Source of the DNA: Prorocentrum cordatum | Taxonomy: Eukaryota > Sar > Dinophyceae > Prorocentrales > Prorocentraceae | NCBI GenBank assembly: GCA_963575745.1 | Contig: CAUYUJ010014205.1 | Location: forward strand, 47,501-111,500 | DNA: 64,000 nucleotides | Direction of reading: 5' to 3' | In this document: positions 6,809-33,290 of the stretch, in pieces | Numbering within the stretch: position 1 is the first letter of the stretch | How the letters are laid out: each line of letters opens with the position of its first letter | Translations under genes and position numbers: made by a program | The notes under the pieces: model-generated | Seen by the model: the letters and a program-made list of their open reading frames with translations, nothing else | What the model was told of the DNA's origin: nothing | The model's database searches: none

Positions 6809-6809
6809 T

Positions 6810-7735
6810 TCAGCAGGAAACGCAGGGGCACACTTCTCCAGCGTCCGCCACCATCTCCTTAACTGCCTGCCACCCTTGGTTCTCGATCCATGGCTGCAGC
6901 GCCTTGATCTTCGCCTCGTCGAGCTGCCTCCGCTCGTCTAAACTTAGCCTGGCCTCCACCACCGAAGCCTTTCTGGCCGCGTTGGTCAGGTTGACCGTGT
7001 CCGCGTCTTCGCACAGTAGGAGTAGCTCGTCGCCTTCACCGCTGCTCGCTGCGCTGTCCGCTGTCGTCACGTCGGTCTGATTTGGTCTCTTTGGTAGTGG
7101 CCGTAATCCGTCCAGTCGCCTTGCCGCGTTGATGGCGTCCAGCAACTCGTCACCGTCCTCGGCCGTGTGCTCCTCCGCCTTTCGCTTCTCAACCGCGGTC
7201 CGGTTCGTCGTCTGCTCCATCTCGACCTGCTCAGGACCTGGTCCAGCTGGTGTCGTCTCGCGCTCCATCTCCGGGCTTCTCACGTCCTGTGACGCGTCAG
7301 CCGAAACGTCCGGGCGTGGGGGCTCGGACGCCGTGCGCGCCTGCATCTCGGCCACCTCGGGTACTCGGTCGCAGTCGTCGCTCTGCTCGCCCTCGCGGTG
7401 CTCGTCCTGCCGATCGGCCTCGGTCGCCTCCACCTGGCCGTCAGTGTCGACGCCCCTCATATCCATCTGCATGGGGAACTGCTCGTCCTCGTAATCCTCC
7501 GGCTGACCGATAACTGCACCAGTGTGAACGGCCCGTGTGGTCCGCGAATTTCGTGGATCCGCTGGTGTTCTTCAGCTTCTCTAGCACTCGCTCGGCCGAT
7601 GACAGTGGCAGTCCGTGATCGTCATCTTCTTCTTCTCTTTGTCGTCGCTCCTCTGGCAGTTCGGCTCGTAACAGCTCGTGCGTCGTCTGTATGAGCGTGC
7701 TGCCATACACACACCACAGCACTGACTGTCTAAGT
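6810..7735 (-). pseudogene. Copia linker between integrase and RT
   Basis: A 220-codon minus frame (6810-7472) is rich in Asp, Glu, Arg and Gln with no recognisable fold, and a further 93-codon frame covers 7441-7722. This corresponds to the poorly conserved integrase C-terminus and linker of copia polyproteins. Frame changes occur at about 7470 and at both ends. Confidence 0.6.
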
Positions 7736-14343: not shown

Positions 14344-14392
14344 TTAACTATATGGGTTGCGCCGCCGCACGGCATTTTTCGTTGGCGGATTC
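13976..14392. repeat. Three tandem ~125-bp repeats with (AT)n spacers
   Basis: Each unit begins GGCGGATGACGGGAAGCGTC and runs through CTTTAACTATATGGGTTG to TTTTTCGTT. Copies start at about 13979, 14119 and 14240. After CTTGAGTA each copy has a TA tract of different length (about 30, 6 and 36 bp). A fourth copy lies at 34221-34358. Confidence 0.9.
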
Positions 14393-14730
14393 CCCAAAAT
14401 GGCCATTTCGCTCGAGACATCCTCCTAAAATCGAGGTGTTGGAGGCTATCGTTTAAGACGTCTTATGTTAAAAATGACGGTTTCGCTCGAGACATCCTCA
14501 GAAAGTCGGGGTGTTGAAAAATGTCAAGGATTTTTGTTGTGCATGAAAAATGAGCGTTTCGCTCGAGACATCCTCGAAAAAATGAGATGCCGACAGAGGT
14601 GTTTTACAACCTCTTATGTTAAAAATGACGTTTTCGCTAGGGACGTCCTCAGAAAATGAGCAGGTGGTCTGCCGTGCTCCTGTGTGGAGCACGGCAGAAA
14701 ATGAGCATTTCGCTCGAGACATCCTCCTAA
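14393..14730. repeat. Dispersed repeat with TTTCGCTCGAGACATCCTC motif, five copies
   Basis: The motif or a close variant (CGCTAGGGACGTCCTC in one copy) recurs at about 14405, 14481, 14556, 14631 and 14706. Spacing is near 75 bp, with ATGTTAAAAATGACG before two of the copies. Further copies occur at 31381, 32935, 34516, 35335 and throughout 59780-62230. Confidence 0.85.
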
Positions 14731-14739
14731 AATCGAGGT

Positions 14740-15090
14740 GTGGTCTGCCGTGCTCCTGTGTGGTCTGCCGTGCTCCTGTGGTCTGCCGTGCTCCCCACAG
14801 GAGCACGGCAGACCAAGACGAGGAGCAGGGCAGACCAGGCTTAGGAACCGAGAGGAGCACGGCAGACCAAGACGAGGAGCACGGCAGACCAGGCACCAAG
14901 AGCGCCCTCAAGACGACGGAAAGGATGACCAAGACGAGGAGCACGGCAGACCAAGACGAGGAGCACGGCAGACTATGCCCTAAGAGTGCCCTCCAGACGG
15001 CCGAACAAGGGCAGACCCCATAGGAGCACGGCAGACCACAGAAGAGCACGGCAGACCAACAGGAGCACGGCAGACCACACAAGAGCACGG
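14740..15090. repeat. 20-bp satellite array, left segment, with orientation switch
   Basis: Units resemble GAGCACGGCAGACCACACAG. At 14745-14795 the array reads in the reverse orientation (TGGTCTGCCGTGCTCC) and flips at a perfect 14-bp inverted repeat (14780-14793 with 14801-14814). The right part contains longer spacers such as CCAAGAGCGCCCTCAAGACG. The array is cut at 15090 by the first non-LTR element. Confidence 0.92.
15076..15090. repeat. Target-site duplication of LINE copy 1 (left)
   Basis: CACACAAGAGCACGG precedes the element and recurs at 22698-22712 directly after it. The unoccupied paralogous array has it once (31729-31743). Confidence 0.9.
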
Positions 15091-15112
15091 TCCGTAGCCA
15101 TTTTGGCTCAAG
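15091..15112 (+). other. Dinoflagellate spliced-leader sequence at LINE 5' end
   Basis: All 22 bases match the known dinoflagellate SL consensus (DCCGTAGCC...GGCTCAAG). It is followed by GCCATGG, not by the GT donor of an SL RNA gene. It therefore represents SL copied back from trans-spliced mRNA. Confidence 0.93.
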
Positions 15113-15270
15113 GCCATGGCGCACCCGACGACCGCGAGTCCGTCGGGCGTTCTTGAGCGCGAGGGGCGCCCCGCCGCGAGCCAGAAGCTTCGCCAATTTT
15201 GTTCTTCTTCGTTCCTGCAGGGCCGAGTGTATCGGCCGCGCAGCTGTCAGTCTTCCCTGGGTGAGCCGCC

Positions 15271-16569
15271 ATGTCGGAGGTTGCCTCGGGGCTGGCCAGG
15301 CGGGCGTACTGGTTGTGTGCTAAGCGTGGCTGCAGTGCTTGGAACTGGTGTGACAAGCGGTGGACGTGCAAGGCGTGCGGCACCAGTGCTCCCCCATGGA
15401 CGAAGAAGTATCGCTCTGACAAGCCCCCCCCGCGGGCGGACGCAGGCGGGTTCGTGCAGCAGCCCAGGGGAAGGGCTGAGCAGCGCGCTGCGAGGCGCTC
15501 GGCCTCCCAGCGGGCCCTCTCGGGGAGCACCGCGCCCAGCAGCGCCCCCAACAGCAGGGCACGGCGCGCGCGGCCTTGGGGAGAGGCCAAGACGCAGATC
15601 GAGGAGCTGCAGGCGCAGCTCGATGCGGCCAGGGAGCGCGTCGCCACGCTCCAGGGGGCTTCGGCGCTCGGGCTCTCAGTGGACTTCCAGCGTGAGGCGG
15701 AGAACGCCCTCCAGCAGGGCAAGGACCAGGTCGCCGCCCTGGAGCGGTCCGTCCAGGAGGCCCAGCGGACGGAGCGCCCGCCTCACTCTGTGCTCCACAT
15801 TGAGGCCAACGCCATCCAGAAGGTCGAGCGCCAGTTGGCCACGGCGCGTACCAGGAAGGAGAAGCTCCAGCTGCAGGCGTCCGAGCTGCGCGAGCTCATC
15901 GCGGAGAAGCAGGAGCAGCTATCGGCAGCCGAGTTGGGGGTTGATGAAGTCACTGGGCAGATTGCAGAGCTGGAAGAGACCAGGGCCAAGGTCACTCAGC
16001 AGGCGATCCAGCGGGCCAACGCAGCTGTCGGAGGCGTGCCGAGCCCGCTTGGGGACGCTGTCCAGGGGTTGCTCACTCAGGTTGGCGCCCTTTCGGATCT
16101 CCTCAAGCAGCACGGCGCCGACCTGCCGCCCAGGTTTTCGGAGATCGTCGAGATTCTCAACACGCAGAAGGAGGCGGTCGCTGACGTGCTCAGGCCCCGA
16201 AGCAGCTCGGTCAGGAAGCGTTGGGGCGACAGCGTCGGTGAGGACGGCCTCGCGACTGAGGATGACGACATGCCGCTCGACATCGTGGCCCCAGGTGGGC
16301 CTGCGGCCGCCCCTCCCGCGGCCGCCCCGCTGGCAGGGCCGACCGCGGCTGGGCCGCCAGCCGCGCGGGTCAGGCCAGCGGACGGACCCTACGGCCCAGC
16401 GGCGGCCCGTGGCCAACACGGGGCTACCCTGGGCGCGTGGCCTCAGGTGGAGCCCAGCCTCACCAAGGCCCTCGCCGAGCAAGGGGCGGCCTTCACGGAC
16501 GGCGACCCCTTGTTGGCTGCGGCTGCTGTCGTTGCTCCTGCTGCTGGGTACGGGCCGCGCCGTGGGTGA
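15271..16569 (+). CDS. LINE copy 1 ORF1: Cys-finger and coiled-coil RNA-binding protein
   Basis: 432 codons. Residues 14-37 hold W-x-C-x4-C-x3-N-x7-C-x2-C (Cys16, 21, 33, 36), close to a RanBP2-type zinc ribbon. Residues about 105-250 are a long Ala/Glu/Gln/Lys-rich coiled coil (for example EELQAQLDAARERV), expected to oligomerise. The C-terminal part is Pro/Ala-rich. By analogy with other LINE ORF1 proteins it should coat element RNA. Met at 15271 was chosen because the sequence CCGCCATGTCGG is in a good context and copy 2 has the same start and identical length. This frame is far better conserved between copies than the overlapping frame, indicating real selection here. Confidence 0.88.
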   Translation: MSEVASGLARRAYWLCAKRGCSAWNWCDKRWTCKACGTSAPPWTKKYRSDKPPPRADAGGFVQQPRGRAEQRAARRSASQRALSGSTAPSSAPNSRARRARPWGEAKTQIEELQAQLDAARERVATLQGASALGLSVDFQREAENALQQGKDQVAALERSVQEAQRTERPPHSVLHIEANAIQKVERQLATARTRKEKLQLQASELRELIAEKQEQLSAAELGVDEVTGQIAELEETRAKVTQQAIQRANAAVGGVPSPLGDAVQGLLTQVGALSDLLKQHGADLPPRFSEIVEILNTQKEAVADVLRPRSSSVRKRWGDSVGEDGLATEDDDMPLDIVAPGGPAAAPPAAAPLAGPTAAGPPAARVRPADGPYGPAAARGQHGATLGAWPQVEPSLTKALAEQGAAFTDGDPLLAAAAVVAPAAGYGPRRG

Positions 16570-19500
16570 TGCTGGAGCGTGGGAGTGGTCAGCTTCCACA
16601 GTCGGCCTCGATGTGGGGGCCAGCGAGACGCCTTCCCCTCGGGATGTGCGCGGGCCCAGCTGTTGGGAGAGGTGGAGGAGGCGCTGTGACGGCCGCTGGC
16701 GCGTCCGCGCCCCCCGCAGGCGGCGGGCGGCGCCGAGCACCCTCGCCCGAGGTAGCCAGCTGGCGCGGTCGGGATCACCGAGGTGGCCCCCCGACGGCCA
16801 GTCAGGGGCCAAGAGCGGTGGGATTCAGCCCCACGACGTCGCAGCTCTCGGCCCCGTTGGTGATGGGCATGCGCACCCCCCGCTGGCAACCGGAGGGGCG
16901 GAGGGACGGCCACCTCCCCAGCCCTGCGATGGCGCGCCGCGGAGGGAGGGACGGCCCCCTCCCGTTCTGGCGAGCGGCCCGCCGACGCCGCTGAGGAGCG
17001 CTGGAGCGAGGGGCCAGGTCCCCCCTCCAGTCCTGGTGGGGGCGGAGGGTCCCGCGACCAGGAGCACAGCGGGCCCCGTGTCTGACGCTGATGGGCGGGC
17101 CGCTCGCGAGGCAGCTGTCATCGGCAAGGCGCCGCAGGTCGGCAGGGCAGGAGGCCGGCAGCTTAGAGCCGGCCTCGTCATGTTCGGCTGCAACGGCAAC
17201 GCTTGGAGCAGGAGCATTGAAGCCCTCGAGGCCTTCTTCAAGGCGTACGACTACTGGCCTGACGTCGTGGCGCTGCAGGAGACGAGGCTCCAGCGTGCGC
17301 GCCTGCCCAGTGCTGCGGCTCAGGCCCGCGGCCTGGGCTACGCGGCCTTCCTCCACGAGGCGGCGCCGACGGGGAAGCAAGGGCCCCAGGCGACCTCAGG
17401 CGGCGTGGCGATTCTGGTGCGAGACGGCTTGCAGGCCGACGAGTCGGCGTGCCCTTTGCCCTCGGCCTTGCGCCACCGCCTCATCGGGGTGGAGGTCGCC
17501 GCTGCCTCGGGCTTTCGGGTCCTGGTGCTGGCTGGGTACTTTCAGCACTCTGTGGGCCCTCGAGGCACCAACCTGGACTTGTTTACGGCCATCTCGGAGG
17601 TGACGGGCTTTTCTGCCGACATCCCGTGGGTCCTCCAAGCCGACTTCAACATGGAGCCCGAGCCACTGGAGGAATTGGGGTGGCCCGCTGCGGTGCGGGG
17701 GCATGTCCTGGGGCCCTCGGAGGCGACGTGCCATGCCGAGGGATGTGACCACCTCTACGACTGGTTCGTGGCTTCCTCGGCGTTGGCAGCCTGCACGGCC
17801 TCCTGCGCCACCGCGCTCGAGGGCTTCGGTCTGCACCCTCATCGCCCTGTCCTGCTTCGTCTCCAGGACGTTCGGGCAGATGCGTTGGTGGAGGTTCCGT
17901 CCAGGCCCGCACGCTTCCCCGAAGTTGCTCCTGAGCTCCTTCGGGCGCGCGAGGACGCGGAGATTGCGTGCTACTCGGTTGGCAAGAAAGGACAGGTCAC
18001 GCCCAGGAGCGTCGCGTGGTCCTGGGACGCAGGCACTTCACCGACCAACCTCTCCGACGCCTTCAGCGAGTGGGCTGCGGCGGCAGAAGGCACCCTGGTC
18101 GGCATCCACGGCATCGTCCAGGCCGACTTGGCCCGTCATCTCGGCAGAGGAGAGGGGCCGCGGCTGACCCTCAAGCCCCTCAGTGCCTTGGTCAAGCGAG
18201 ACGCCAGGTTCAGGTTCAGCCTCCTCACGCACCGCTTGCGGAGCTGCCTGGACGTTGCCCTCCAGCGGTTGCGCGCTGAGAGGACTGGCCGCTGGCACCC
18301 TCGGCATGCAGACTGGTACGGGCACCAGGCCGTGCTCAGAGCGCAGCTCTTGCTGGAGGCGGTGCAGGAGGCGGCCGACTCGGACGGTGGAGCTCTTCCT
18401 GGCGCAGCTCCTGATCGACTGGGCGACCTGGTGTTTCAGGCGGGCGTCCACGGCAGCCCTGATGCCGTTCGGGACCTCCAAGGGCTGCTCGGAGCATCGC
18501 AGCGCCGCGACGCGGCTGAGAGCGCCCAGGCCTGGCGCAACTGGGCGCAGACAGCGGTTGAGAAGGGCGGTCGTCTGGCCCACCGCTTCTCGAAGGCGAC
18601 GCCTCCGCCGACGGTCAGGGACGCTGACTCTGGCAGGAGGCTCGTTGGGATGGCAGCGATCGGCGAGCTCACGAGTGTCTGGCAGAAGCTGTGGCTCCAG
18701 GACGGCTTTGCCCTGGGCGCTGGGGCCAGCAGCTGGGACGTTGGCGAGTGGCGGCTGCCACCCATCTCGCTGGAGCAGCTCCAGGCGGCCTGCAAGCGCT
18801 ACAGCCCCTCGGTGGGGCTCGGGTGCGACTCTCTGCACCCTCGGCAGATCCTCCTGCTGCCCGTGGCGCTGCAGCAGCGCATCCTGGACATCCTGGCGGC
18901 CTACGACGACGCCCCTGCATCGATCAGCGGGCAGGTCTCCCTGATGGTGTTCATCCCGAAGGCAGATGGAGGGGTAAGGCCCATTGCGCTGCTGCCGCTG
19001 GTCCTGCGGCTGTGGTCGCGCCTCCGCCAGCCGTGCTGCGCCCGCTGGGAGGCTGACCACGACTTCCCCTTTTTCTGGGGACGTGACGGGCGGGACTGTG
19101 AGCGGGCTGGGTGGCTGCACAACTGTTTTGCGGGGTTCGCGATGGCGAACCAGCAGTTCGAGGCCGCGAGCCTCTTCCTGGACATCAGCAAGTTCTACGA
19201 GCACGTGCGACATGATGTGCTCTGGGCGAATGCAGTACGTTTCGGGTTCAACCTCAGGCTGCTGCGCGGCCTCCTCACCTCCTACCAGGCCCCAAGGATG
19301 GTCCTCGCGGCGGGCATGGCTTCCCCCGCCTTCGGCACTACGGGTACGGTTCTGGCTGGGTGTGCGTGTGCGACAGCAGTTGCGAAGCTCCCAGTGCTGG
19401 GCGCCCTCCTGGCCGCGGGGGCGATGTGCCCATTGATCACGCCGCGGAACGTTGTCGACGACATCTCGCTCCAGGCGGTCGGCACGGCCCGACTAGTCAA

Positions 19501-22042
19501 GCGTCAGATGTTGGTTTCCAGCTGTGAAGTGGTCCGCCTGCTGCGTGAGCAGCACCTCCCACTCAACGAGAGTAAGTCGGTCTTCCTGGCCTCGTCGCCA
19601 CAGCTCGCCAAGGAGCTCTCCGAGGCGTGGGCAGCGCAGGGCCTGGCCTTCAAGAGGGGACTGCAGGCGAGGAACCTCGGCACCGACGCCAACATCACTC
19701 GTCGAGGCGTGCATGAAGGAGCTGGGCGTGCGGTCGGCGGCCTTCGGCGTGGCCGCAGGCTCGGGGTGCTTCGCTCCGCTGGGGCGGCGACCGAGATGGT
19801 CCACCGTGCTGGGCCCACCGCAGCGATGCTGTGGGGGCGTACTGTGACTGGTGTGCCTGATGGGGAGCTACATTCGTGGCGCTTGGCGGCGGCGCGCTCG
19901 GCTGGGAAGCTCCCCAAGGGCGCCTCACTCGGGCTGAGGCTCAGGGCGGCGGAGGTCATGCGGTCCATCGACCTCGACCCGAGCCCCGCGTTGCTTCGTG
20001 CCGCTGTGCAGATGGCGGCCAGCCTCCTGCAGTCGGGGGAGGTCTCGCAGCGCATGTTCGAGACGGCCGTGCAGGAGGCGGAGCGGAGGCACGCGGGAGC
20101 AGCAGCCCCATGGGCGCATTGCCGTACGCCAGTGGATGCCCTGGCTCTCTCGCTCACCAGGGTGGGCTGGAGACTCGTCCAAGGCACCTGCCTCGCCACC
20201 GACGACGGCCACTTCCTGGACCTGCGCATGATGGGGCCGCGCGAGCTGGGCCTGCTGGCAGCGGCAGGGGCGCGGCGTGCTTCGGACAGGTCGGAGCTGG
20301 CCCGCCTAGGCCATGGAGCGCTCCCCCCGATGCCCCTGTTCTGGGAGGCCTTCTCGGAGGTCCTCGGGTCGGGCAGCAAGCTCAGCCCCAGGGAGAAGGC
20401 GGCGGTGGTGAGTTTTCTCTCCAACGCCCACTGGCCCCAGATCCGTTTGCACTCGGCGGGGGAGAGGGAGCATGCTCGCTGCTGCGCGTGCGATGCACCC
20501 CGCGGCAGTCTCTGGCACAGGCTGTTCGAGTGTCCCGTCCTCGCGGGGCCGAGGCGCGACTCGGCCTCCGACCGCCTGCGGCGCTGTGCACACCGAGCAC
20601 GTGGCCGAGGTGAGGAGGCGGGGGAATGCTTTGCGCGCTGCTGGCTCCCTCAGCCCCCTAGGGCCGCTCTGAGGTCGGATGCCATGGCTGTCATGTGGTG
20701 CAATCGCCCCGTTGACGGTCTCCTCGGGGGGCGCCTCTACCTGGATGGGTCGGCGCTCGACCCCGAGCACGCGAGCCTGCGGCGTGCGGGCTGGAGCATC
20801 GTGCAGTGCGACCCCGACGGCAACATGGAGTGCGCGGTGTACGGCAGCGTGCGCCAAGACCTCTGCCCTTTCCAGTCGGCCAAGGACGGTGAGGATTTCG
20901 CGGTCTGGATGCTGTCCCGCTTCCTGGGCCCGTGTGTGGACGAGATCCTCATCGATTGTGCGTCTACGGTCAGCTGCCTGACGTTGGGCAAGAAGTACGC
21001 GACGGCAGCCAACAAGCCCAATGCCCATCTCTGGGCGGGGATCTACGCTTCGCTGGACGTGGACATGCTTAAGGTTACCAAGGTGGCAGCCCACTGCACC
21101 GCCCGTGACGTGCTGGAAGGCAAGATCACGGAGGCGGACCTCCGCGGCAATGGTCATGCCGACCGCTGGGCCAAGGCAGGTGCGGCGCTGCACCGCTCCA
21201 GCCCCGTGGCCAGGCGGGAGTTCTTCGGCACGATGGAGGTGGTGAGGGAGCTCTCATGCTGGGTGGCGCAGGCCTCCCTCATCTGGCAGGGGATCGAGGT
21301 CAAGGATTGCGAGGGCCTGCCAGTGGGCAGCGAGCGGATGGCTGTTTCCTTCGCCGCGCCCGTGGTGGAGCCTGCCAGCCGCCGCCAGGTCGACTCGGGT
21401 TCGGGCGACGGGTGGGCCTCGGCGGCGCGCGCTGGTGGAGTATCCCTCGGTGCGACGGCCTTCGTTTTCGCTGGCCACGTCCTGGCCTTCGCCAGGTGCG
21501 GGGAGGGCGCCGCCGAGCAGGAGCTGATGGCGTGCACCCACTGCGGGGCGTACGCGCGGCTTGGCGGGCGCTCAGGCGCGGCGCCCAAGCTCAAGGAGCA
21601 ATGCCCAGGGTCTGCTGGGCTTCCCAAGGGCAGGCGCGACCAGAAGGCACGCTGGCTGCAGGGGCGGCATCCTGCTGGCACGCCCCACAGCGGCAACAAG
21701 CGGGCCAGCGGCGCGGCGGTGCCCAGCCTGCGCAAGGAGGACGTGGTGCCGATGGACGCCAGGGTGCGCTTCCTGCAGTGGCTGGGCGTCCGTCCCGAGG
21801 ACGGTGCCCCTGGCGGCGATGCCGCCTGCGCCAGCCGCGGGCCCCCCAGCGGCGCGTCGGCCGCTGGCGAGGCTGCGGCGGCGCCGCTGGTGCCTGGCCC
21901 CGCGGGGGCCTCGAGGGAGGCATGGCTGAGCGCCTACGGCCTGGACGAGGCGAGCCTCCTCGAGTGGTCGGCCGCGGCTGAGGCGGCGCGCGAGGACAGG
22001 CGCAAGCGGCGCCGCCGCGCTGATGAAGACGAGGGGTCGTGA
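16570..22042 (+). CDS. LINE copy 1 ORF2: endonuclease, reverse transcriptase, RNase H
   Basis: The reading frame runs uninterrupted to the stop at 22042. Endonuclease (about 17168-17860) has FGCNGN, ALQETRL (catalytic Glu), ADFNMEP and LHPHRPVLL. RT (about 18760-19700) has FIPKADGGVRPIALL, motif A FLDISKFYEHV, motif B GTVLAGCA, motif C NVVDDIS (Asp pair at 19457-19462) and LNESKS. A zinc finger CxxC...HxxxxxC lies at 20481-20535. RNase H (about 20735-21190) has YLDGSA, DGEDFAV, LIDCAS, AAHC and NGHADRW. The C-terminus has CTHCGAY...C and a KRRRRADEDEG tail. No ATG in this frame lies between the ORF1 stop and the endonuclease (first Met is in GLVMFGC), so the start shown is only the beginning of the non-overlapping part. 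Frameshifting from ORF1, reinitiation or use of the ATG at 15116 are alternatives. Confidence 0.9.
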
Positions 22043-22697
22043 TGCAGCATCATCATCTTCTTCCTGTTGTGTCCGCCCTCTCTCGTGGTCTGCAGGTCAG
22101 CAGACACCTTCATTCTGTGAGTTCGTGAGGCTGCACCTTCATTTGTTGCGTGTTTCAGCCCTCACGTCGAGGTCAGGCATGTTAGCGTTGGCTGCGTGTG
22201 CTGGCCATCACCCTTGAGGTTCGTGAGGCTGCTCAGTCTTTTTGTCGTGAGTTTCTGCCCTCTCGTCCTCTGGAGGTCAGGCGTGTTTGGCGTTTGCAAT
22301 GCGTGTGCTGGCCGTCTGTGAGGTTTCGAGAGGCTGCACCGTCATTTTGTTGTGTGCGTCAGCCCTCTCGTCGAGGTCAGGCCTGTTTGGCTTTGGCAAC
22401 GCGTGTGCTGACCTCACCTCGTGGTTCGTGAGGCCCTTCGTCATTTTGTCGTGAGTGTGGGCCTCGCGTCTTGTTTGCAGCGAGGCAGGCATGGTTGGCC
22501 TCGCTATGCGTGCCCTCGCCTCCGCCTGCATTCTTGATTTCTTTGAAATCTGGGCGCTTCGCGCTTCTGGCGCTTCGCGCCCTCCCCGTCGGTGGCTCCT
22601 TCGGGGCCCCGTGGGTTGGCTCTGGAGGCCCTGGGGCCAACGTGCTCCGCGGGCCTCGGGCTCCTTTAGCCTTCATAGGCCCCGCAGCACAGCACAG
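22043..22697 (+). other. LINE copy 1 3' UTR with ~100-bp tandem repeats and terminal stem-loop
   Basis: Four or more imperfect repeats of about 100 bp (GTGAGGCTGC...CCTCTCGTCGAGGTCAGGC...GCGTGTGCTGGCC) occupy 22080-22500. Copy 2 has essentially no such expansion. From 22535 both copies share GGCGCTTCGCGCC-type hairpins, then GGGGCCCYKDGGGTTGG and AGCCTTCATAGGCCCCGCAG at the end. The shared terminal structure is a candidate recognition site for the element's RT. Confidence 0.75.
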
Positions 22698-22916
22698 CAC
22701 ACAAGAGCACGGCAGGCCACACAGGAGCACGGCAGACCACACAGGAGCACGGCAGACCACAAAGGAGCACGGCAGACCACACAAGAGCACGGCAGACCCC
22801 ACAAGAGCACGGCAGACCCCACAGGAGCACGGCAGACCCCACAGGAGCACGGCAGAGCAGACCCAAAAGGAGCACGGCAGACCACACAGGAGCAAGGCAA
22901 ACCACAGGAGCACGGC
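22698..22916. repeat. 20-bp satellite array between the two LINEs
   Basis: 219 bp of GAGCACGGCAGACC units. It matches 31729-31947 of the uninterrupted array almost base for base, with the same 191-bp spacing between the two insertion points. Confidence 0.95.
22903..22916. repeat. Target-site duplication of LINE copy 2 (left)
   Basis: CACAGGAGCACGGC precedes the spliced leader and recurs at 30094-30107 after the element. The empty array has it once at 31934-31947. Confidence 0.9.
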
Positions 22917-22938
22917 TCCGTAGCCATTTTGGCTCAAG
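22917..22938 (+). other. Dinoflagellate spliced-leader sequence at LINE 5' end
   Basis: Identical 22-base SL, again followed by GCCATGGCGC. The target base C (22916) precedes it, whereas in copy 1 the preceding target base is G. This shows the SL begins exactly at the element terminus. Confidence 0.93.
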
Positions 22939-23093
22939 GCCATGGCGCACCCGACGACCGCGAGTCCGTCGGGCGTTCTTGAGCGCGAGGGGCGCTCTGC
23001 CACGAGCCAGAAGCTTCGCCAAATTTGTGCTTCTTCGTTCCTGCAGGGCCGAGTGTCTCGGCCAACCTGCGGCCAATCCCTCGGTGAGCCGCC

Positions 23094-24392
23094 ATGTCGG
23101 AGGTTGCCTCGGGGCTCGCTCGGAGGGCTTACTGGTTGTGTGCTAAGCGTGGCTGCAACGCTTGGAATTGGTGCGACAAGCGTTGGACGTGCAAGGCGTG
23201 TGGCACCAGTGCTCCCCCATGGACGAAGGAGTACCGCTCCGACAAGGTCTCCCCTCGGGTGGACGCCGACGGGTTCGTGCAGCAGCCCAGGGGAAGAGCT
23301 GGCCAGCGCGCTGCGAGGCGCTCCGCCTCCCAGCGGGCCCTCTCAGGGAGCACGGCACCCAGCAGCGCCCCCAACAGCAGGACACGGCGTGAGCGTTCCT
23401 GGGGAGAGGCCAAGTCTCAGCACGATGAGCTCCAGGCGCAGCTCGAGGCGGCCAAGGAGCGGGTCGACAAGCTCCAGGCGGCCGCGGCGCTCGGGCTCTC
23501 GGAGGACTTCCAGCGAGAGGCGGAGAAGGCCCTCCAGCAGGGCAGGGACCAGGTCGCCGCCCTCGAGCAGTCGGCCCAGGAGGCCCAGCGGACGGGGCGC
23601 CCGCCCCACTCGGTCTTCCACATCGAGGCCAACGCCATCCAGAAGGTCGAGCGCCAGCTGGCCGCTGCCCGCACCAAGAGGGAGAAGCTCCAGCTGCAGG
23701 CGGCTGAGCTGCGTGACCTCATCGCGGAGAAGCAGGAGCAGCTGTCTGCGGCCGAGTTGGGAGTTGACGAGGTCACTGGGCAGATTGCCGAGCTGGAGGA
23801 GACCAAGGCCAAGGTCACGCAACAGGCGATCCAGAGGGCCAACGCGGCAGTCGGTGGTGTGCCGAGCCCGCTCGGGGACGCTGTCCAGGGGCTGCTCACT
23901 CAGGTTGGGGCCCTGTCGGACCTCCTCAAGCAGCACGGGGCTGAGCTGCCCCCCAGGTTCTCGGAGATCGTCGACATTCTCAACACGCAGAAGGAAGCGG
24001 TCGCTGACGTGCTCAGGCCCCGCAGCAGCTCGGCCAGGAAGCGCTGGGGCGACAGCGTTGGCGACGACGGCCTCGCGACTGAGGACGATGACATGCCGCT
24101 CGACATCGTGTCCTCAGGTGGGCCCGTGGCCGCCCCCTCCCCTGGCGCCCCGCAGACAGGGCAGTCCGCGGCTGGGCCTCCCGCCCCACGGGCCAGGTCT
24201 GAGGACGGACCCTACGGGCCCGCAGTGGCCCGTGGCCAGCACGGAGCGACTCTGGGTGCGTGGCCCCAGGTGGAGCCCTGCCTCGCCAAGGCCCTCGCAG
24301 TGCAAGGGGCGGCCATCTCGGACGGCGACCCCTTGGTGGCTGCAGCTGCTGTTGTGGCTCCTGCTGCAGGGTACGGGCCGCGCCGTGGGTGA
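23094..24392 (+). CDS. LINE copy 2 ORF1: Cys-finger and coiled-coil RNA-binding protein
   Basis: 432 codons, exactly the length of the copy 1 protein and nearly identical from residue 170 to 360. The N-terminal finger (Cys16, 21, 33, 36) is unchanged. Most differences are conservative and lie in the first coiled-coil half (DELQAQLEAAKERVDKLQ) and in the Pro/Ala-rich C-terminus. ORF2 is read in the +1 frame relative to it, as in copy 1. Confidence 0.88.
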   Translation: MSEVASGLARRAYWLCAKRGCNAWNWCDKRWTCKACGTSAPPWTKEYRSDKVSPRVDADGFVQQPRGRAGQRAARRSASQRALSGSTAPSSAPNSRTRRERSWGEAKSQHDELQAQLEAAKERVDKLQAAAALGLSEDFQREAEKALQQGRDQVAALEQSAQEAQRTGRPPHSVFHIEANAIQKVERQLAAARTKREKLQLQAAELRDLIAEKQEQLSAAELGVDEVTGQIAELEETKAKVTQQAIQRANAAVGGVPSPLGDAVQGLLTQVGALSDLLKQHGAELPPRFSEIVDILNTQKEAVADVLRPRSSSARKRWGDSVGDDGLATEDDDMPLDIVSSGGPVAAPSPGAPQTGQSAAGPPAPRARSEDGPYGPAVARGQHGATLGAWPQVEPCLAKALAVQGAAISDGDPLVAAAAVVAPAAGYGPRRG

Positions 24393-27300
24393 CGCAGGAG
24401 GACTGGAGTGGCAAGCCTCCACAGCCCGCGGGCCCAGCTGCTGGGACAGGTGGAGGAGGCGCTGCGACGGCCGCTGGCGCGTCAGAGCCCCTCGCAGGCG
24501 GCGGGCGGCGCCCAAGCCCCTTGCCCGAAGTAGCCAGCTGGCGCGGTCGGGAACACCGAGGTGGCCCCCCGACGGCCAGTCAGGGGCCGAGAGCGGTGGG
24601 ATTCAGCCCCACGACGTCGCAGCTCTTGGCCCCGTTGGTGAAGGGCAGGCGCACCCCCCGCTCGCTACCGGAGGGGCGGAGGGACGGCCGCCTCCCCAGC
24701 GGTGGCCACCACCCGTGCAGGCGAGCTGCCCGCCGACGCCGTCTAGGAGCGCTGGAGCGTGGGGCCAGGTCCCCCCTCCAGTCCTGGTGGGGGCGGAGGG
24801 CCCCGCGACCAGGGGCTCGGCGGATATGGAGCCTGGCGTTGAGGAGCGCGCGGCTCGCGAGGCTGCCGTCATCGGCAAGGCGCCGCTGTTTGTCAGGGCA
24901 GGAGGCCAGCAGCTCCGAGCTGGCCTTGTCTTGCTCGGCTGCAATGGCAATACTTGGAGCAGGAGCATTGAGGTCATTGAAGCCTTCTTCAAGGCGTACG
25001 ACTACTGGCCCGACGTTGTGGCGCTGCAGGAGACGAGGCTCCCGCATGAGCGCCTGCCCAGTGCGGCGGCTCAGGCCCGAGGCCTGGGGTACGCGGCCTT
25101 CCTACACGCGGCAGTGTTGACGGAGAAGCAGGGGCCCCTGGCGACCTCAGGCGGCGTGGCAATCCTGGTGCGGGACGGCTTGCAGGCCGATGAGTCTGCG
25201 GCCCCGCTGCCCTCGGCTTTGCGGCACCGCCTCATCGGAGTGGAGATTGCCGCCGCTTCGGGCCTTCGGCTTCTGGTGCTCGCTGGTTATTTTCAGCACT
25301 CTCTGGGTCCTCGAGGCACCAACCTGGACTTGTTTTCGGCTATCTCCGAGGTGACGGGCTCCTCTGCAGACATCCCGTGGGTCCTTCAAGCGGACTTCAA
25401 CATGGAGCCCGAGCCCCTGGAGGAGTTGGGGTGGCCCGCGGCGGTGCGGGGGCACGTCCTGGGGCCCTCGGAGGCGACGTGCCATGCCGAGGGCTGTGAC
25501 CACCTCTACGACTGGTTCGTGGCTTCTGCGGCGTTGGCTGCCTGCACGGCCTCCTGCGCCACCACGCTCGAGGGCTTTGGTCTGCACCCTCATCGCCCTG
25601 TCCTACTTCGCCTACAGGATGTTCGGGCAGATGCGTTGGTTGAGGTTCCGTCCAGGCCCGCCCGCTTCCCCGAAGTAGCCCCTGAGCTCCTTCGGGCACA
25701 CGAGGACGCGGAGATTGTGCGTTACTCGGTTGGCAAGAAAGGGCAGGTCACGTCCAGGGAGGTCTCGTGGTCCTGGGACGCGGGCTCCACTCCGACCAAC
25801 CTCTCCGTTGCCTTCGGCGAGTGGGCGGCGGCCGCAGAAGGCACCCTGGTCGGCATCCACGGCATCGGCCAGGCTGACCTGGCCCGTCATCTCGGAAGAG
25901 GAGAGGGGCCGAGGCTGACCCTCAAGCCTCTCAGCGCCCTTGTCAGGCGTGACGCCAGGTTCAGGTTCAGCCTCCTCACGCACCGCCTAAGGAGTTGCCT
26001 GGACGTGGCCCTCCAGCGGGTGCGCGCAGAGAGCACTGGCCGATGGCACCCTCGGCATGCGGACTGGCACGGGCACCAGGCCGAGCTCAGGGCGCAGCTC
26101 TTGCTGGAGGCGGTGCAGGAGGCGGACGACTCGGTCGGTCAGGGTCTTCCTGGTGCTGCTCCTGAGCGGTTGGGCGACCTGGTGTACCAGGCGGGCGTCC
26201 TGGCAGCCCTGAGGCAGTTCGGGACCTCCAAGGGCTGCTCAGTGCTTCGCAGCGCCGTGATGCGGCTCAAAGCGCCCAGGCCTGGCGCAGCTGGGCCCAG
26301 ACAGCGGTCGAGAAGGGCGGTCGCCTGGCCCACCGCTTCTCGAAGGCGACGCCCCCGCCGACGGTCAGGGACGCTGACTCGGGCAGGAGGCTCGTTGGTA
26401 TGGCAGCGATTGGTGAACTCACGAGTGTCTGGCAGAAGCTGTGGCTCCAGGACGGGTTTGCCTCGGGCGCAGGGGCCAGCAGCTGGGACGTGGGCGAGTG
26501 GCAGCTGCCCCCCACCTCGCTGGAGCAGCTCCAGGCAGCCTGCAAACGCTACAGCCCCTCGGTGGGCCTCGGGTGCGACTCCCTGCACCCTCGGCAGATC
26601 CTCCTTCTGCCAGTGGCGCTGCAGCTGCGCATCCTGGACATCCTGGCGGCCTACGACGAGGCCCCAGCATCGATCCACGGGCAGGTCTCCCTGATGGTGT
26701 TCATTCCGAAGGCAGACGGTGGGGTAAGGCCCATTGCGCTGCTGCCGTTGGTCCTGCGGCTCTGGTCGCGTCTCCGCCAACCGTGCTGTGCACGCTGGGA
26801 GGCTGACCACAACTTCCCCTTCTTCTGGGGACGTGATGGGCGGGACTGTGAGAGGGCTGGTTGGCTGCACAACTGCTTCGCGGGGTTCGCGAAGTCGAAC
26901 CTGCAGTTCGAAGCCGCGAGCCTCTTCCTGGACATCAGCAAGTTCTACGAGCACGTGCGGCACGACGTTCTCTGGGCGAATGCGGTACGTTTCGGGTTCA
27001 ACCTCAGGTTGCTGCGTGGCCTCCTCACGTCCTACCAGGCCCCTAGGATGATCCTCGCGGCGGGCATGGCCTCCCCCGCCTTCGGCACTACGGGAACGGT
27101 GTTGGCGGGGTGTGCATGTGCGACAGCAGTTGCGAAGCTCCCAGTACTGGGAGCCCTCCTGGCAGCGGGGGCGACGAGCCCGCTGGTCACGCCGAGGAAT
27201 GTGGTCGACGACATTTCGCTCCAGGCGGTCGGCACGGCTCGGCTCGTGAAGCTGCAGATGGTGGCCGCCAGTTGTGAAGTGATCCGCCAGCTGCGTGAGC

Positions 27301-29786
27301 AGCACCTCCCACTCAACGAGAGTAAGTCGGTCTTCCTGGCCTCGTCGCCACAGCTCGCCAAGGAGCTCTCCGAGGCCTGGGCGGTGCATGGCTTTACCTT
27401 CAAGAGGGGACTCCAGGCGAGGAACCTCGGCACCGACGCCAACATCACCCGCCGTGGAGTTCATGAAGGAGCTGTGCGTGCGGTCGGCGGCCTTCGCCGA
27501 GGACGCAGGCTAGGGGTGCTTCGCTCAGCTGGCGCGGCGACCGAGATGGTCCATCGTGCTGGGCCCGCCGCGGCGATGCTGTGGGGGCGCACTGTGACTG
27601 GTGTTCCTGATAGGGAGCTGCATTCGTGGCGCTTGGCGGCGGTGCGCTCAGCTGGGAAGTTCCCTAAGGGGGCCTCGCTCGGGTTGAGACTCAGAGTGGT
27701 GGAGGTCATGAAGTCCATCGACCTTGACCCGAGCCCCGCGCTGCTTCGTGCCGCGGTGCAGATGGCGGCCAGTCTCCTCCAGTCGGGGGAGGTCCCGCTG
27801 CGTATGTTCGAGTCGGCCGTGCAGGAGGCAGTGCAGAGGCACGCGGGAGCAGCAGCCCCTTGGGCGCACTGCCGCACGCCGGTGGATGCCCTGGCCCTCT
27901 CGCTCTCCAGGGTGGGCTGGAGGCTTGTTCAAGGAGCCCGCCTCGCAACCGACGACGGCCATCTCCTGGACCTGCGCATGTTGGGGCCGCGCGAGCTGGG
28001 CATGCTGGCTGCGGCAGGGGCACGGCGAGCGTCGGACAAGTCGGAGCTGGCCCGCCTCGGCCACGGTGCGCTCCCCCAGTCGGCCCTGTTCTGGGAGGCC
28101 TTCGCGGAGGTCCTCGGGCCTGGCAGCAAGCTCAGCCACAGGGAGAAGGCGGCTGTGGTGAGCTTCCTTTCCAACGCCCACTGGCCCCAGACCCGTCTGC
28201 ACTCGGCGGGAGAGAGGGAGCACGCTCGCTGCTGTGCCTGTGAGGCCCCCCGCGGCAGCCTCTGGCACAGGCTGTTCGAGTGTCCTGTCCTTGCGGGGGC
28301 CAGGCGTGACTCTACCTCTGACCGCCTTCGGCGCTGTGCGCATCGTGCACGCTGTCGTGGCGAGGAGGCGGGTGAATGTTTCGCGCACTGCTGGCTCCCT
28401 CAGCCCCCGAGGGCCGCCCCGAGGTCGGACGCCATGGCAGTCATGTGGTGCAATCGCCCCGCCGACGGTCTTCTCGGGGGGCGGCTCTACCTGGATGGGT
28501 CGGCGCTCGACCCCGAGCACGAGAGCCTGCGGCGTGCGGGCTGGAGCATCGTGCAGTGCGACTCCGACGGCAACATGGAGTGCGCGGTGTACGGCAGCGT
28601 GCGCCAGGACCTCTGCCCGTTCCAGACGGCGAAGGACGGCGAGGATTTCGCGGTCTGGATGCTGTCTCGCTTTCTGGGCCCGAGCGTTGACGAGATCCTC
28701 ATCGATTGTGCGTCCACGGTCAGCTGCCTCACGTTGGGTAAGAAGTACGCGACGGCAGCCAACAAGCCCAACGCCTATCTCTGGGAGGGGATCTACGCGT
28801 CGCTGGACGTGGACACGCTCAAGGTGACCAAAGTGGCAGCCCACTGCACCGCCAGAGACGTGATGGATGGCAAGATCACGGAGGCGGACCTCCGTGGCAA
28901 CGGACATGCAGACCGCTGGGCCAAGGCGGGGGCGGAGCTGCACCGTACCAGCCCAGTGGCCAGACGCGAGTTCTTTGGCACGATGGAGGTGGTGAGGGAG
29001 CTCTCTTGCTGGGTGGCGCAAGCCTCCCTCATCTGGCAGGGGATCGAGGTCAAGGACTGCGAGGGCCTCCCCGAGGGCAGCGAGCGGGCGGCCGTCTCCT
29101 TCGCAGTGCCAGTGGTGGAGCCCGCCAGCAGCCGCCCGCCCGACTCGGGTTCGGGCGACGGGTGGGCATCGGCGGCGCGCGCTGGTGGCGTCTCCCTCGG
29201 GGCGACGGCCTTCGTCGTCGTCGGCCACGTCCTGGCCTACGCCAAGTGCGGGGAGGGCGCAGCCGAGCAGGAGCTGATGGCGTGCACCCACTGCGGGGCG
29301 TACGCGCGGCTGGGCGGGCGCTCAGGTGCGGCGCCCAAGCTCAAGGAGCAGTGCCCAGGGTCGGCTGGGCTTCCCAAGGGCAGGAGAGACCAGAAGGCGC
29401 GCTGGATGCAGGGGCGGCACCCTGCTGGCACGCCCCACAGCGGCAGCAAGAGGGTCGGTGCGTCTGTGCCCAGCTTGCGCAAGGAGGACGTGGTGCCGAT
29501 GGCCGCCAGGGTGCGCTTCCTGGAGTGGCTGGGTGTCCGCCCCGATGATGCACCTGGCGGCGTGGCCGCCGACGCCTGCCGAGGGCCCCCCAGCGGCGCG
29601 GCGGCCGCAGGTGAGGCGGAGGCCGAGCCTTTGGCGCCTGACTCCTCGGGGGCCTCGAGGGAGGCGTGGCTTAGCGCCTACGGGCTCGACGAAGCGAGCC
29701 TCCTCGAGTGGTCAGCCGCAGCAGAGACGGCGCGCGAAGACAGGCGCAAGAGGCGCCGTCGCGCTGAAGGTGACGAGGGGGAGTGA
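24393..29786 (+). pseudogene. LINE copy 2 ORF2 with a single-base deletion
   Basis: Endonuclease motifs (LLGCNGN, ALQETRL, ADFNMEP, LHPHRPVLL) are intact in the first frame, open to 26694. Copy 1 reads GTCCACGGCAGCC where copy 2 reads GTCCTGGCAGCC at 26196-26208, one base short. The downstream frame then carries RT (LDISKFYEHV; VVDD at 27204-27212), the zinc finger, RNase H (YLDGSA, IDCAS, AAHC, NGHADRW) and the CTHCGAY tail to the stop at 29786. Everything else looks functional, so the deletion is probably recent. Confidence 0.88.
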
Positions 29787-30093
29787 TGCTGCATCACTTT
29801 CCTCCTCCTGTTGCATCTGCCCCCCGTCACCTCTTTTGGCGTGTGCGTGAGGCAGCATCTTCTGCCCCGCATTGCTGTTGCAGCGAGGCGGCTCTGTCTG
29901 GCGTGAATTGCGCCGCAGCCCCGCTGCCTTCTGATGTCTTTGAAATCGTGCGCTTCGCGCATTTGGCGCTTCGCGCCCTTCCCCCTGGCGGCTCCCTTGG
30001 GGCCCCTAGGGTTGGCCCTTGAGGCCCTGGGGCCAACGGGCTCTGTGGGCCTCGGGCTCCTTTTAGCCTTCATAGGCCCCGCAGCTCACAGCT
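29787..30093 (+). other. LINE copy 2 3' UTR
   Basis: 307 bp, lacking the tandem expansion of copy 1 but sharing the terminal 150 bp, including TTTGAAATC, the GGCGCTTCGCGCC hairpins and AGCCTTCATAGGCCCCGCAG. Confidence 0.75.
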
Positions 30094-31005
30094 CACAGGA
30101 GCACGGCAGACCACACAGGAGCACGGCAGACCCCACAGTAGCAAGGCAGACCCCAAAGGAGCACGGCAGACCACCGGAGCACGGCAGACCACACAGGAGT
30201 ACGGCAGACCCCACATGAGCACGGCAAATCCCAAATGAGCACGGCAGACCACAAGAGCACGGCAGACCACACAGGAGCACGGCAGACTCCACAGGAGCAC
30301 GGCAGACCACAAAGGAGCACGGCAGACCACACAGGAGCCCGGCAGACGCCACAGGAGCACGGCAGACGCCACAGGAGCACGGCGGAACCCACAGGAGCAC
30401 GGCAGACCGCGCGCGGGTACAACATAAACGCGCCTTTTTGTTGTACCCCGAACGCCGCTGGCGTTTCCCCAACAGGAGCACGGCAGATCTCACAGGCGCG
30501 CGGCAGACCCCAAATGAGCACGGCCGACCACAGGAGCACGGCAGACCCCAAATGAGTACGGCAGACCCCAAAAGAGCACCGTAGACGCCTCAGGAGCACG
30601 GCTGACCACACAGGAGCACGGCAGACCACACAGGAGCGCGGCAAACCACAAAGGAGCAAGGCAGACCCCAAATGAGCACGGCAGTCCACACGTTCGCACG
30701 GCAGACCGCACAGGAGCACGGCAGACCGCACATGAGCACGGCAGACCAAGAAGGAGCACGGCAGACCACACAGGAGCACGGCAGACCACACAGGAGCACG
30801 GCAGACCACACAGGACACGGCAGACCCCACGGGAGCACGGCAGACCACACAGGAGCACGGCAAACCACACAAGAGCACGGCAGACCATACAGGAGCACGC
30901 CAGACCACACAGGAGCACGGCAGACCACACGTTCGCACGGCAAACTCCACAGGAGCACGGCAGACCCCAAAGGAGCACGGCAGACCACAGGAGCACGGCA
31001 GACCG
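30094..31005. repeat. 20-bp satellite array, right of LINE copy 2
   Basis: About 45 units of GAGCACGGCAGACC plus 4-8 variable bases. It contains a 10-bp perfect inverted repeat GGGTACAACA/TGTTGTACCC (30415-30424 and 30439-30448) within a non-satellite insert of about 60 bp. The whole segment is repeated at 31934-32815. Minus-strand frames of up to 388 codons (CRAPVWSAVLLCGLPCS) are satellite artefacts. Confidence 0.95.
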
Positions 31006-31245
31006 TCTTCGAGGCCTCTTGGGCCGTCTTGGGGCCCTCTTGGAGCCATCTTAGCCGTCTTGGAGGCCATCTTGGCCGTCTTGGAAGACATCTTGGGCGT
31101 CTTGGAGGCCTCTTGCGCCGTGTTAGGGCCCTCTTGGGACCGTCTTGGGGACTTCTTGGGCCGTTTCGGGGCCATCTTGAAGGCCTCTTGGGCGATCTTA
31201 AAGCGATCTTGGGGGCCTCTTGGGCCGTCTTGGGCCGTCGGAACG
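31006..31245. repeat. CTTGGGGCC/CTTGGAGGCC degenerate minisatellite
   Basis: Irregular 12-24-bp words GGCCGTCTTGG, GGCCTCTTGG and GGCCATCTTGG. The same family is found at 41700-42005, 42610-43010 and 43220-43640, and inverted at 34555-34870 and 35385-35585. Confidence 0.85.
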
Positions 31246-31440
31246 CGGCAGGCCATCATTTAGTCTGTTCTGTTGCGTTTATGGGTTTCTCTGACGTTCT
31301 CGCCAATACGGTCTCTGACGCACGTGGTGGATAAAAAACGGCGCTTCCCGTTCTTGTCCGGTCAGGTTCCCCAAAATGGCCATTTCGCTCGAGACATCCT
31401 CGAAAAATCGAGGTGTTGGAGGCTATCGTTTAAGACGTCT
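31246..31440. repeat. Dispersed repeat ending in the CTCGAGACATCC motif
   Basis: The part 31249-31375 is nearly identical to 36132-36255 (GGCAGGCCATCATTTAGTC through GTTCTTGTCCGGTCAGGTT). The distal half carries TTTCGCTCGAGACATCCTC and GAGGTGTTGGAGGCTATCG, as at 14405. Confidence 0.85.
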
Positions 31441-32820
31441 TAGGAACCGAGAGGAGCACGGCAGACCAAGACGAGGAGCACGGCAGACCAGGCTTAGGAA
31501 CCGAGAGGAGCACGGCAGACCAAGACGAGGAGCACGGCAGACCAGGCACCAAGAGCGCCCTCAAGACGACGGAAAGGATGACCAAGACGAGGAGCACGGC
31601 AGACCAAGACGAGGAGCACGGCAGACTATGCCCTAAGAGTGCCCTCAAGACGGCCGAACAACGGCAGACCCCATAGGAGCACGGCAGACCACAGAAGAGC
31701 ACGGCAGACCAACAGGAGCACGGCAGACCACACAAGAGCACGGCAGGCCACACAGGAGCACGGCAGACCACACAGGAGCACGGCAGACCACAAAGGAGCA
31801 CGGCAGACCACACAAGAGCACGGCAGACCCCACAAGAGCACGGCAGACCCCACAGGAGCACGGCAGACCCCACAGGAGCACGGCAGAGCAGACCCAAAAG
31901 GAGCACGGCAGACCACACAGGAGCAAGGCAAACCACAGGAGCACGGCAGACCACACAGGAGCACGGCAGACCCCACAGTAGCAAGGCAGACCCCAAAGGA
32001 GCACGGCAGACCACCGGAGCACGGCAGACCACACAGGAGTACGGCAGACCCCACATGAGCACGGCAAATCCCAAATGAGCACGGCAGACCACAAGAGCAC
32101 GGCAGACCACACAGGAGCACGGCAGACTCCACAGGAGCACGGCAGACCACAAAGGAGCACGGCAGACCACACAGGAGCCCGGCAGACGCCACAGGAGCAC
32201 GGCAGACGCCACAGGAGCACGGCGGAACCCACAGGAGCACGGCAGACCGCGCGCGGGTACAACATAAACGCGCCTTTTTGTTGTACCCCGAACGCCGCTG
32301 GCGTTTCCCCAACAGGAGCACGGCAGATCTCACAGGCGCGCGGCAGACCCCAAATGAGCACGGCCGACCACAGGAGCACGGCAGACCCCAAATGAGTACG
32401 GCAGACCCCAAAAGAGCACCGTAGACGCCTCAGGAGCACGGCTGACCACACAGGAGCACGGCAGACCACACAGGAGCGCGGCAAACCACAAAGGAGCAAG
32501 GCAGACCCCAAATGAGCACGGCAGTCCACACGTTCGCACGGCAGACCGCACAGGAGCACGGCAGACCCCACATGAGCACGGCAGACCAAGAAGGAGCACG
32601 GCAGACCACACAGGAGCACGGCAGACCACACAGGAGCACGGTAGACCACACAGGACACGGCAGACCCCACGGGAGCACGGCAGACCACACAGGAGCACGG
32701 CAAACCACACAAGAGCACGGCAGACCATACAGGAGCACGCCAGACCACACAGGAGCACGGCAGACCACACGTTCGCACGGCAAACTCCACAGGAGCACGG
32801 CAGACCCCAAAGAAGCACGG
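31441..32820. repeat. Uninterrupted satellite array carrying both LINE empty sites
   Basis: This segment equals, in order, 14843-15090, 22698-22916 and 30094-30980 with the two LINEs removed. The insertion points are present once each, CACACAAGAGCACGG at 31729-31743 and CACAGGAGCACGGC at 31934-31947, 191 bp apart exactly as in the filled copy. The GGGTACAACA/TGTTGTACCC hairpin recurs at 32255-32288. Small differences (for example a duplicated AGGAACCGAGAGG unit near 31442) show it is a separate locus. Confidence 0.93.
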
Positions 32821-33290
32821 CAGTGGTACGTGGCACTGCTGTGGTATGCCGTACTAAAAACGTGGAATATCTCATAAGCCCAGGGGACAAAAGGACGCTT
32901 CCCGTTCTTGTCCGGTCAGGTTCCCAAAATGGCCATTTCGCTCGAGACATCCTCAAAAAATCGAGGTGTGGTCTGCCGTGCTCCTGTGTGGTCTGCCGTG
33001 CTCCTGTGGTCTGCCGTGCTCCCCACAGGAGCACGGCAGACCGCGCGCAGGAACCGAGAGGAGCACGGCAGACCAAGACGAGGAGCACGGCAGACCAGGC
33101 ACTGAAACCGAGAGGAGCACGGCAGACCAAGACGAGGAGCACGGCAGACCAGGCACCAAGAGCGCCCTCAAGACGACGGAAAGGATGACCAAGACGAGGA
33201 GCACGGCAGACCAAGACGAGGAGCACGGCAGACTATGCCCTAAGAGTGCCCTCAAGACGGCCGAACAATCATCAAACAAACAATGAGTCT
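32821..33290. repeat. Mixed repeat block with inverted satellite
   Basis: Contains GTTCTTGTCCGGTCAGGTT and TTTCGCTCGAGACATCCTC (32905-32952), reversed satellite units, a 14-bp inverted repeat (33008-33021 with 33029-33042) and then forward units. It resembles 14700-15000. Confidence 0.85.

Follow-up and report, generated by a model that had tools for sequence, protein, structure and literature searches.

LINE copies of Prorocentrum cordatum begin with the dinoflagellate spliced leader and probably prefer one position of a 20-bp satellite

Results

The window analyzed here is a stretch of 64,000 bases (61% G+C) from the dinoflagellate Prorocentrum cordatum, corresponding to C13356:47501-111500 of the host assembly (4.13 Gb, 21,875 contigs) that was searched genome-wide. 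It contains two long interspersed nuclear elements (LINEs), copy 1 at 15091-22697 (7607 bp) and copy 2 at 22917-30093 (7177 bp), embedded in a satellite with a 20-bp unit; all features are on the plus strand unless stated otherwise. The satellite is found to the left of copy 1 (14790-15090), between the copies (22698-22916), and to the right of copy 2 (30094-31004). Each element is bounded by a target site duplication (TSD), the 15-bp CACACAAGAGCACGG at 15076-15090 and 22698-22712 for copy 1 and the 14-bp CACAGGAGCACGGC at 22903-22916 and 30094-30107 for copy 2. Both TSDs start at (G/A)AC|CACA, and they end one base apart, after AGCACGG and after AGCACGGC. A first-pass annotation of the window had reported two LINEs with TSDs at the same satellite position and with preserved empty sites, and all of these are present in the sequence, the one-base offset between the TSD ends included.

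Both elements open with the complete 22-nt dinoflagellate spliced leader (DinoSL), TCCGTAGCCATTTTGGCTCAAG, immediately behind the target. The leader occupies 15091-15112 in copy 1 (exact 21-nt match at 15092-15112) and 22917-22938 in copy 2 (exact match at 22918-22938), and no 21-nt leader match is expected in shuffled sequence. The published DinoSL reads DCCGUAGCCAUUUUGGCUCAAG (PMC8045281; PMC2606063). The first-pass annotation recognized the insertion site pattern correctly and overlooked the spliced leader in the first 22 nt of the elements.

Open reading frame 1 (ORF1) of copy 1 (15271-16569) encodes 432 residues with an N-terminal Cys/Trp zinc-ribbon-like motif and a coiled-coil-like middle, both named by eye, and matches no Pfam family above cut-off. 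The ORF2 frame extends over 16571-22042, which is the extent of the frame and does not imply the position of a start codon. It contains a predicted APE-type endonuclease (~17174-17851), a reverse transcriptase (RT; ~18941-19588), RNase H motifs (20735-21170; RNase H and catalytic residues read by eye) and zinc-finger-like motifs. Copy 2 has an ORF1 of 432 residues at 23094-24392 and an ORF2 region at 24394-29786 that is interrupted by a frameshift, with two frames overlapping at 26400-26694. The Pfam Exo_endo_phos profile scored 32.7 bits in copy 1 and 27 bits in copy 2 (cut-off 24.5). A metagenomic protein (P0026; Pfam RVT_1 plus endonuclease) is 33% identical over 98% of the LINE query, and unnamed P. 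cordatum proteins match copy-1 ORF2 with up to 98% identity (P0003; the best local alignment covers 46% of the query). Apart from the satellite, no direct repeat of at least 60 nt bounds a single element, so there are no long terminal repeats (LTRs). The predicted RT and APE-type endonuclease, the lack of LTRs and the TSDs are the features of a LINE, or non-LTR retrotransposon.

The two copies are 87.75% identical in a 7233-column alignment that includes some flank. The ratio of nonsynonymous to synonymous divergence (dN/dS) between them is 0.18 in ORF1 and 0.14 from the RT to the end of ORF2, with dS at ~0.33-0.35, and third codon positions account for 95 of the 152 ORF1 changes and 353 of the 560 ORF2 changes. 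Both ORFs are under purifying selection. Because dS is ~0.33-0.35 and dN/dS is low, while the arrays described below differ by ~1% or less, the copies represent two old, maintained lineages that inserted recently, and these long-separated lineages landed 190 bp apart. A further frame, 15116-22042, begins with an ATG located three bases downstream of the leader and stays open across ORF1 into ORF2 (2308 codons). It was rejected as a protein over ORF1, where it is not conserved (dN/dS 1.99).

An uninterrupted paralogous satellite array lies at 31441-32824. It contains the empty site of copy 1 at 31729-31743 and that of copy 2 at 31934-31947, which were located by local BLAST and by a scripted join of the flanks. 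When both elements and one copy of each TSD were removed, the joined flanks aligned to 31452-32823 with zero indels and about six mismatches, counted by eye. Local BLAST of the flanks against the empty array gave 98.97% identity over 292 bp, 98.70% over 231 bp (12 bp of which are element tail) and 99.66% over 890 bp. The first-pass claim that the array at 31441-32820 reads straight through both sites is borne out. The equal spacing in filled and empty versions also stands, at a measured 190 bp (22713-22902 and 31744-31933) rather than the 191 bp first given. Paralogy reaches upstream of the array (14390-14465 against 31367-31442, 97%), and ~324 bp downstream of the 14390-14465 match exist on the filled side only. 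A third partial copy of the left part of the array, at 33049-33268, is 98% identical to 31442-31661, and both the filled (30408-30470) and the empty array (32249-32310) are interrupted by a short stretch of non-satellite sequence that contains an inverted repeat (GGGTACAACA / TGTTGTACCC), as judged by eye.

Two copies in one window are insufficient to call an element site-specific, and the claim is therefore carried by a genome-wide survey of junctions. The survey pattern was 59 nt long (the last 7 nt of the leader and the next 52 of the element) and was searched with up to 3 mismatches; it occurred at 63 + 43 = 106 places in the genome and at 0 in the control. Of these places 100 were listed, 66 of them exact among the matches listed. 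Reading 60 fetched regions gave 64 junctions, of which 61 belong to the 66 exact places and 3 are one-mismatch neighbors. The exact places left out are the two window copies, one at a contig edge and two more. Satellite, defined as at least half of the last 40 flank nucleotides, adjoins the element at 61 of the 64 junctions, and its orientation relative to the element is the same in all 61 and opposite in 0. In 53 of 64 cases the junction follows the motif AG(C/T)A(C/A)G at a distance of 0-3 nt, within a 4-nt arc of the 20-nt unit. The unit used by copy 1, CACACAAGAGCACGG, is shared by 20 of the 64 junctions. Exact satellite 31-mers number 2682 in the genome, which scales by the window ratio (8 per 3329 bp) to very roughly 1.1 Mb of satellite, or 0.03% of 4.13 Gb. 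The collection of insertion junctions that the first-pass annotation had proposed was thus carried out on 64 of 106 places. None of 38 gene models of the family contained any of the leader or satellite peptides searched for. The satellite was not found in IMG/VR, where one stretch that matched ORF2 by pattern was discarded when tblastn did not confirm it.

Reuse of a single unit was seen directly. Loci L055, L059, L066 and L086 occupy the copy-1 unit with an identical 15-nt TSD, its boundary letters read by eye. L059 differs from copy 1 at 2 of 169 positions. Any comparison of L055, L066 or L086 with copy 1, with L059 or with one another shows 6-18 differences in 113-169 positions. At least four insertions at the same base of homologous units follow from the shared flank and TSD combined with 6-18 differences between the elements. 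Divergence was taken from the 170-nt alignment; p-distances over ~330 nt are inflated for E2 and L050. TSDs of their own bound L050 (CACACAGGAGTACGG) and L068 (CAGCACGGCAGACC, in another phase), and in L049, L053 and L085 a copy sits in a satellite remnant close behind the 3' end of another copy. Scripted TSDs of 25-30 nt and the element lengths derived with them for L055, L059, L066 and L086 were discarded, as later satellite units had been picked up. The genome-wide junctions, and the finding that one identical unit was hit by four or more clearly different elements, support the earlier proposal of a site-specific LINE.

The 21 invariant letters of the leader are exact at 61 of the 64 junctions; the search pattern required just its 7 final nucleotides, and the 14 invariant letters further upstream are still exact in those 61. 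The first base of the leader is T in 56, G in 5, A in 2 and C in 1; one of the G counts comes from the tandem leader in L039 and is artefactual, and some others may belong to the target. Tandem leaders, a full DinoSL followed by CCATTTTGGCTCAAG, were observed in L005, L027 and L039. This is the pattern expected of re-splicing at the AG inside an older leader, and the L039 tandem counts in favor of trans-splicing because re-splicing onto an older leader predicts it. Judged from the sequences, the copies were probably made from trans-spliced, leader-tagged mRNA. They carry the DinoSL at the 5' end beside a TSD, as candidate DinoSL-tagged retrocopies would. A poly(A) tail may also be a defining trait of such retrocopies, and none was found in the window copies or in 6 other 3' ends.

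The 3' tails are instead short runs of CACAG or CTCACAG units, both in the window copies and at the 6 other 3' ends. Copy 1 ends in (CACAG)2 at 22688-22697 and copy 2 in CTCACAGCT at 30085-30093. CTCACAG tails occur in L055, L066 and L086, and CACAG tails in copy 1 and L059. The tail units correspond to the satellite sequence where the lower strand is nicked (CACAG / TGTG), so that pairing and slippage may take place as reverse transcription begins. Shuffled versions of the 120-nt 3' ends fold almost as well as the ends themselves (z = -1.94 and -1.61), and no structure is proposed for them. At the other end, 18 of 64 junctions have one additional G between the target and the leader, and the right TSD lacks it in 3 of 3 such copies checked (L055, L066 and L086). 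The extra G may be a copied cap.

Exact DinoSL occurs at 7201 + 7017 = 14,218 places in the genome and at 0 in the control. Twenty-eight of these loci, a non-random sample of 8 extracted automatically and 20 picked by hand from 100 listed, were examined. The leader lies directly behind a triplet-periodic stretch in 20 of the 28, mostly (TCC)n by eye, against a background of 2.2% of window positions and 7.3% of positions pooled from the loci. Profiles of the LINE family detected RT downstream in sense at 10 of 20 ten-kb loci and the endonuclease as well at 9 of these. A Pfam scan of ten ORFs, covering four of the other ten loci, found RVT_1 above cut-off at L016 and L027 and weakly at L017 and L018. 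RT therefore follows the leader in sense at 14 of the 20 loci, two by weak matches. Scripted TSDs of 10-21 bp bound several DinoSL loci, a length more typical of LINE-type insertion than of an LTR integrase; at L014, L023 and L026 the TSDs enclose short copies in which an ORF but no RT was seen. Several unrelated LINE families also start with the leader, and the leader route appears to be general in this genome.

Two observations lie outside these families. The virus-like IMG/VR contig L001 (IMGVR_UViG_3300045993_001077, 7157 bp, 22% G+C) contains two exact minus-strand DinoSL, at 2746-2766 and 2893-2913, and behind one of them a 254-residue ORF of higher G+C (by eye) and a short A run; this insert resembles a processed cDNA of a dinoflagellate carried in a viral genome. 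In the window, minus-strand ORFs at 5099-9348 resemble copia-type Pol, with RNase H and integrase-like stretches recognized by eye.

Discussion

We consider it highly probable that a P. cordatum LINE with ORF1 and ORF2, encoding an APE-type endonuclease, an RT and a probable RNase H, prefers one position of the 20-bp satellite and that its copies acquire the leader by trans-splicing. A possible cycle would begin with transcription of the element, perhaps inside a longer transcript, and the host would then trans-splice the 22-nt DinoSL onto the 5' end of the RNA. From the TSDs, the endonuclease would nick the lower satellite strand at 5'-TGTG^GT(C/T)T-3', opposite (G/A)AC|CACA. The 3' CACAG or CTCACAG run of the RNA may pair with the nicked TGTG end and prime reverse transcription, slipping by whole units. 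To judge from the junctions, the enzyme would copy up to the last base of the leader, and a second nick after GAGCACGG, placed by the TSDs, would set the 14-15 bp duplication. Because a leader-tagged RNA copied to its end carries the leader into DNA, the leader would be present in each full-length copy.

Several observations weigh against this reading. A frameshift breaks ORF2 in copy 2 (both frames are open in copy 1); the RVT_1 scores (21.1 bits in copy 1 and 22.5 bits in copy 2) are below the cut-off of 29.6. The sample covers 64 of 106 places and consists almost entirely of exact 59-nt matches, that is, young copies. The pattern needs 7 leader nucleotides, which places leader-less, 5'-truncated and diverged copies outside the sample. 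Only 6 of the 20 windows fetched for 3' ends contained one, and a single insertion that was later duplicated may account for both copy 1 and L059. Three of the 64 junctions are not satellite-adjacent by the 40-nt measure, and a further eight occupy a different position or have bases inserted. L061 and L078 have no satellite, L030, L063, L068, L071 and L079 lie at other positions, and L088 misses the arc, 1 nt short of the motif end. At L056, L069 and the + junction of L039 the satellite is followed by CTCGAT and a T run before the leader, so that T runs or a second leader separate satellite and leader. The extra base of L068 is C and not G, and the extra base may be untemplated. Many junctions also share a flank, and the 64 do not amount to as many independent events. 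With shifts of up to 3 nt permitted the flanks fall into 36 contexts; a tolerance of 3 mismatches gives 26 clusters and one of 6 gives 23. The largest cluster has 21 members, and when each cluster is represented once, the 4-nt arc holds only 14 of the 23. That is still well above the ~5 expected by arithmetic under free phase (4 in 20). The shared target, position and orientation of a site-specific LINE are supported by the junctions, the position more weakly when they are counted by flank cluster.

The related flanks also lend themselves to another account, in which the element has little target preference and copy-bearing arrays were amplified by segmental duplication while other insertions were lost. 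Arrays are duplicated at this very locus, a single unit is common to 20 of 64 junctions, and the 23-36 flank clusters include one with 21 members at 3 mismatches. Amplification does not explain why different elements sit in the same unit between near-identical flanks, why the orientation is 61:0, or why the cluster representatives favor the arc as they do. With only 3 junctions off the satellite, at most 3 of the 23 clusters lack it, and we regard this account as very unlikely. The reverse relationship, in which the LINE produced the satellite by 3' transduction or tail expansion, draws on the CACAG common to tail and satellite, and is extremely improbable. Satellite stands on both sides of the elements, the TSDs lie inside it, an insertion-free array exists whose empty sites contradict the idea at this locus, and 2682 satellite 31-mers face 106 element 5' ends.

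The leader could have been captured once and be a fixed, DNA-encoded part of the element, a 5' untranslated region or promoter, with no fresh trans-splicing. A single exact leader in nearly all 64 copies, with few relics accumulated, is what such a part would show. Unrelated LINE families and retrocopies without RT begin at the same base of the same leader, though, tandem leaders occur in L039, L005 and L027, and the first base varies, even if some of that variation is artefact or target; a fixed leader is accordingly rather improbable. Finally, the array at 31441-32824 could be an assembly duplicate, an alternative haplotype placed in tandem, as divergence of ~1% or less and zero indels between the arrays would allow. 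Its upstream flank differs structurally from that of the filled array by the ~324 bp on the filled side, and the third partial copy at 33049-33268 is a further local duplication, which makes a duplicate of this kind unlikely. The genome-wide junction result is independent of whether the empty array is real.

The evidence is evenly balanced on a wider proposal, that dinoflagellate LINEs live by host trans-splicing: many families would have no start of their own and would take and rewrite the leader in each round. They would also have made the leader-tagged retrogenes and would divide tandem repeats (the 20-bp satellite, TCC and other triplets) among themselves as landing sites. Leader-tagged DNA of P. 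cordatum would then be mostly LINE DNA.

DinoSL-tagged retrogenes of dinoflagellates were reportedly described by Slamovits and Keeling in 2008. Later sources present them as genomic copies of trans-spliced mRNA with a 5' leader and tandem relics (PMC12014239; PMC6050394). The present elements are alike in 5' leader and tandem relics, but those are host genes and here the LINEs themselves are tagged. According to a 2018 review, the type of element mediating retroposition was unknown and an LTR element (Ty1/copia) was thought more likely (PMC6050394); an Oxyrrhis expressed sequence tag paper found only Ty1/copia and took it as a suitable source of RT. LINEs with the leader up to the first base and with TSDs are a direct candidate for the enzyme behind leader-tagged retrogenes. 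The leader also marks a full-length insertion to the base, so that target choice, 3' slippage and possible cap copying can be read from natural insertions. No statement that dinoflagellate LINEs begin with DinoSL was found in searches confined to open-license PMC papers. What is chiefly new is that the LINEs themselves carry the leader at their end.

Site-specific LINEs are known from ribosomal DNA, telomere repeats and microsatellites (R1/R2, TRAS/SART and Waldo/Mino), a group that Kojima and Fujiwara reportedly treated in 2004. The first-pass annotation saw in the satellite a novel class of target; this holds in part, since the 20-bp satellite adds one more target to a known class. The satellite may serve the element as a safe haven, as the same annotation proposed. 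The P. cordatum elements resemble them in an encoded endonuclease and RT, a multicopy target, and a fixed position and orientation, and differ in that the target is a 20-bp satellite and the copies start with a host spliced leader. R2-type LINEs have a restriction-enzyme-like endonuclease (RLE), whereas the domain here is of APE type. SLACS, CZAR and CRE of trypanosomatids insert into spliced-leader genes. LINE and spliced leader thus come together in both systems, but here the leader is the end of the element and the target is a satellite. The trypanosomatid L1Tc/ingi elements are equipped with their own Pr77 promoter and a ribozyme, and Pr77-driven reporter RNAs lack the leader (PMC4748587). 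They are likewise LINEs in a genome with spliced-leader trans-splicing, yet in P. cordatum the leader ends nearly every copy examined. One comparison describes Suessiales LINEs as remnants of an ancient expansion (PMC8045281), in contrast to the two lineages found here, which are under selection and were inserted recently.

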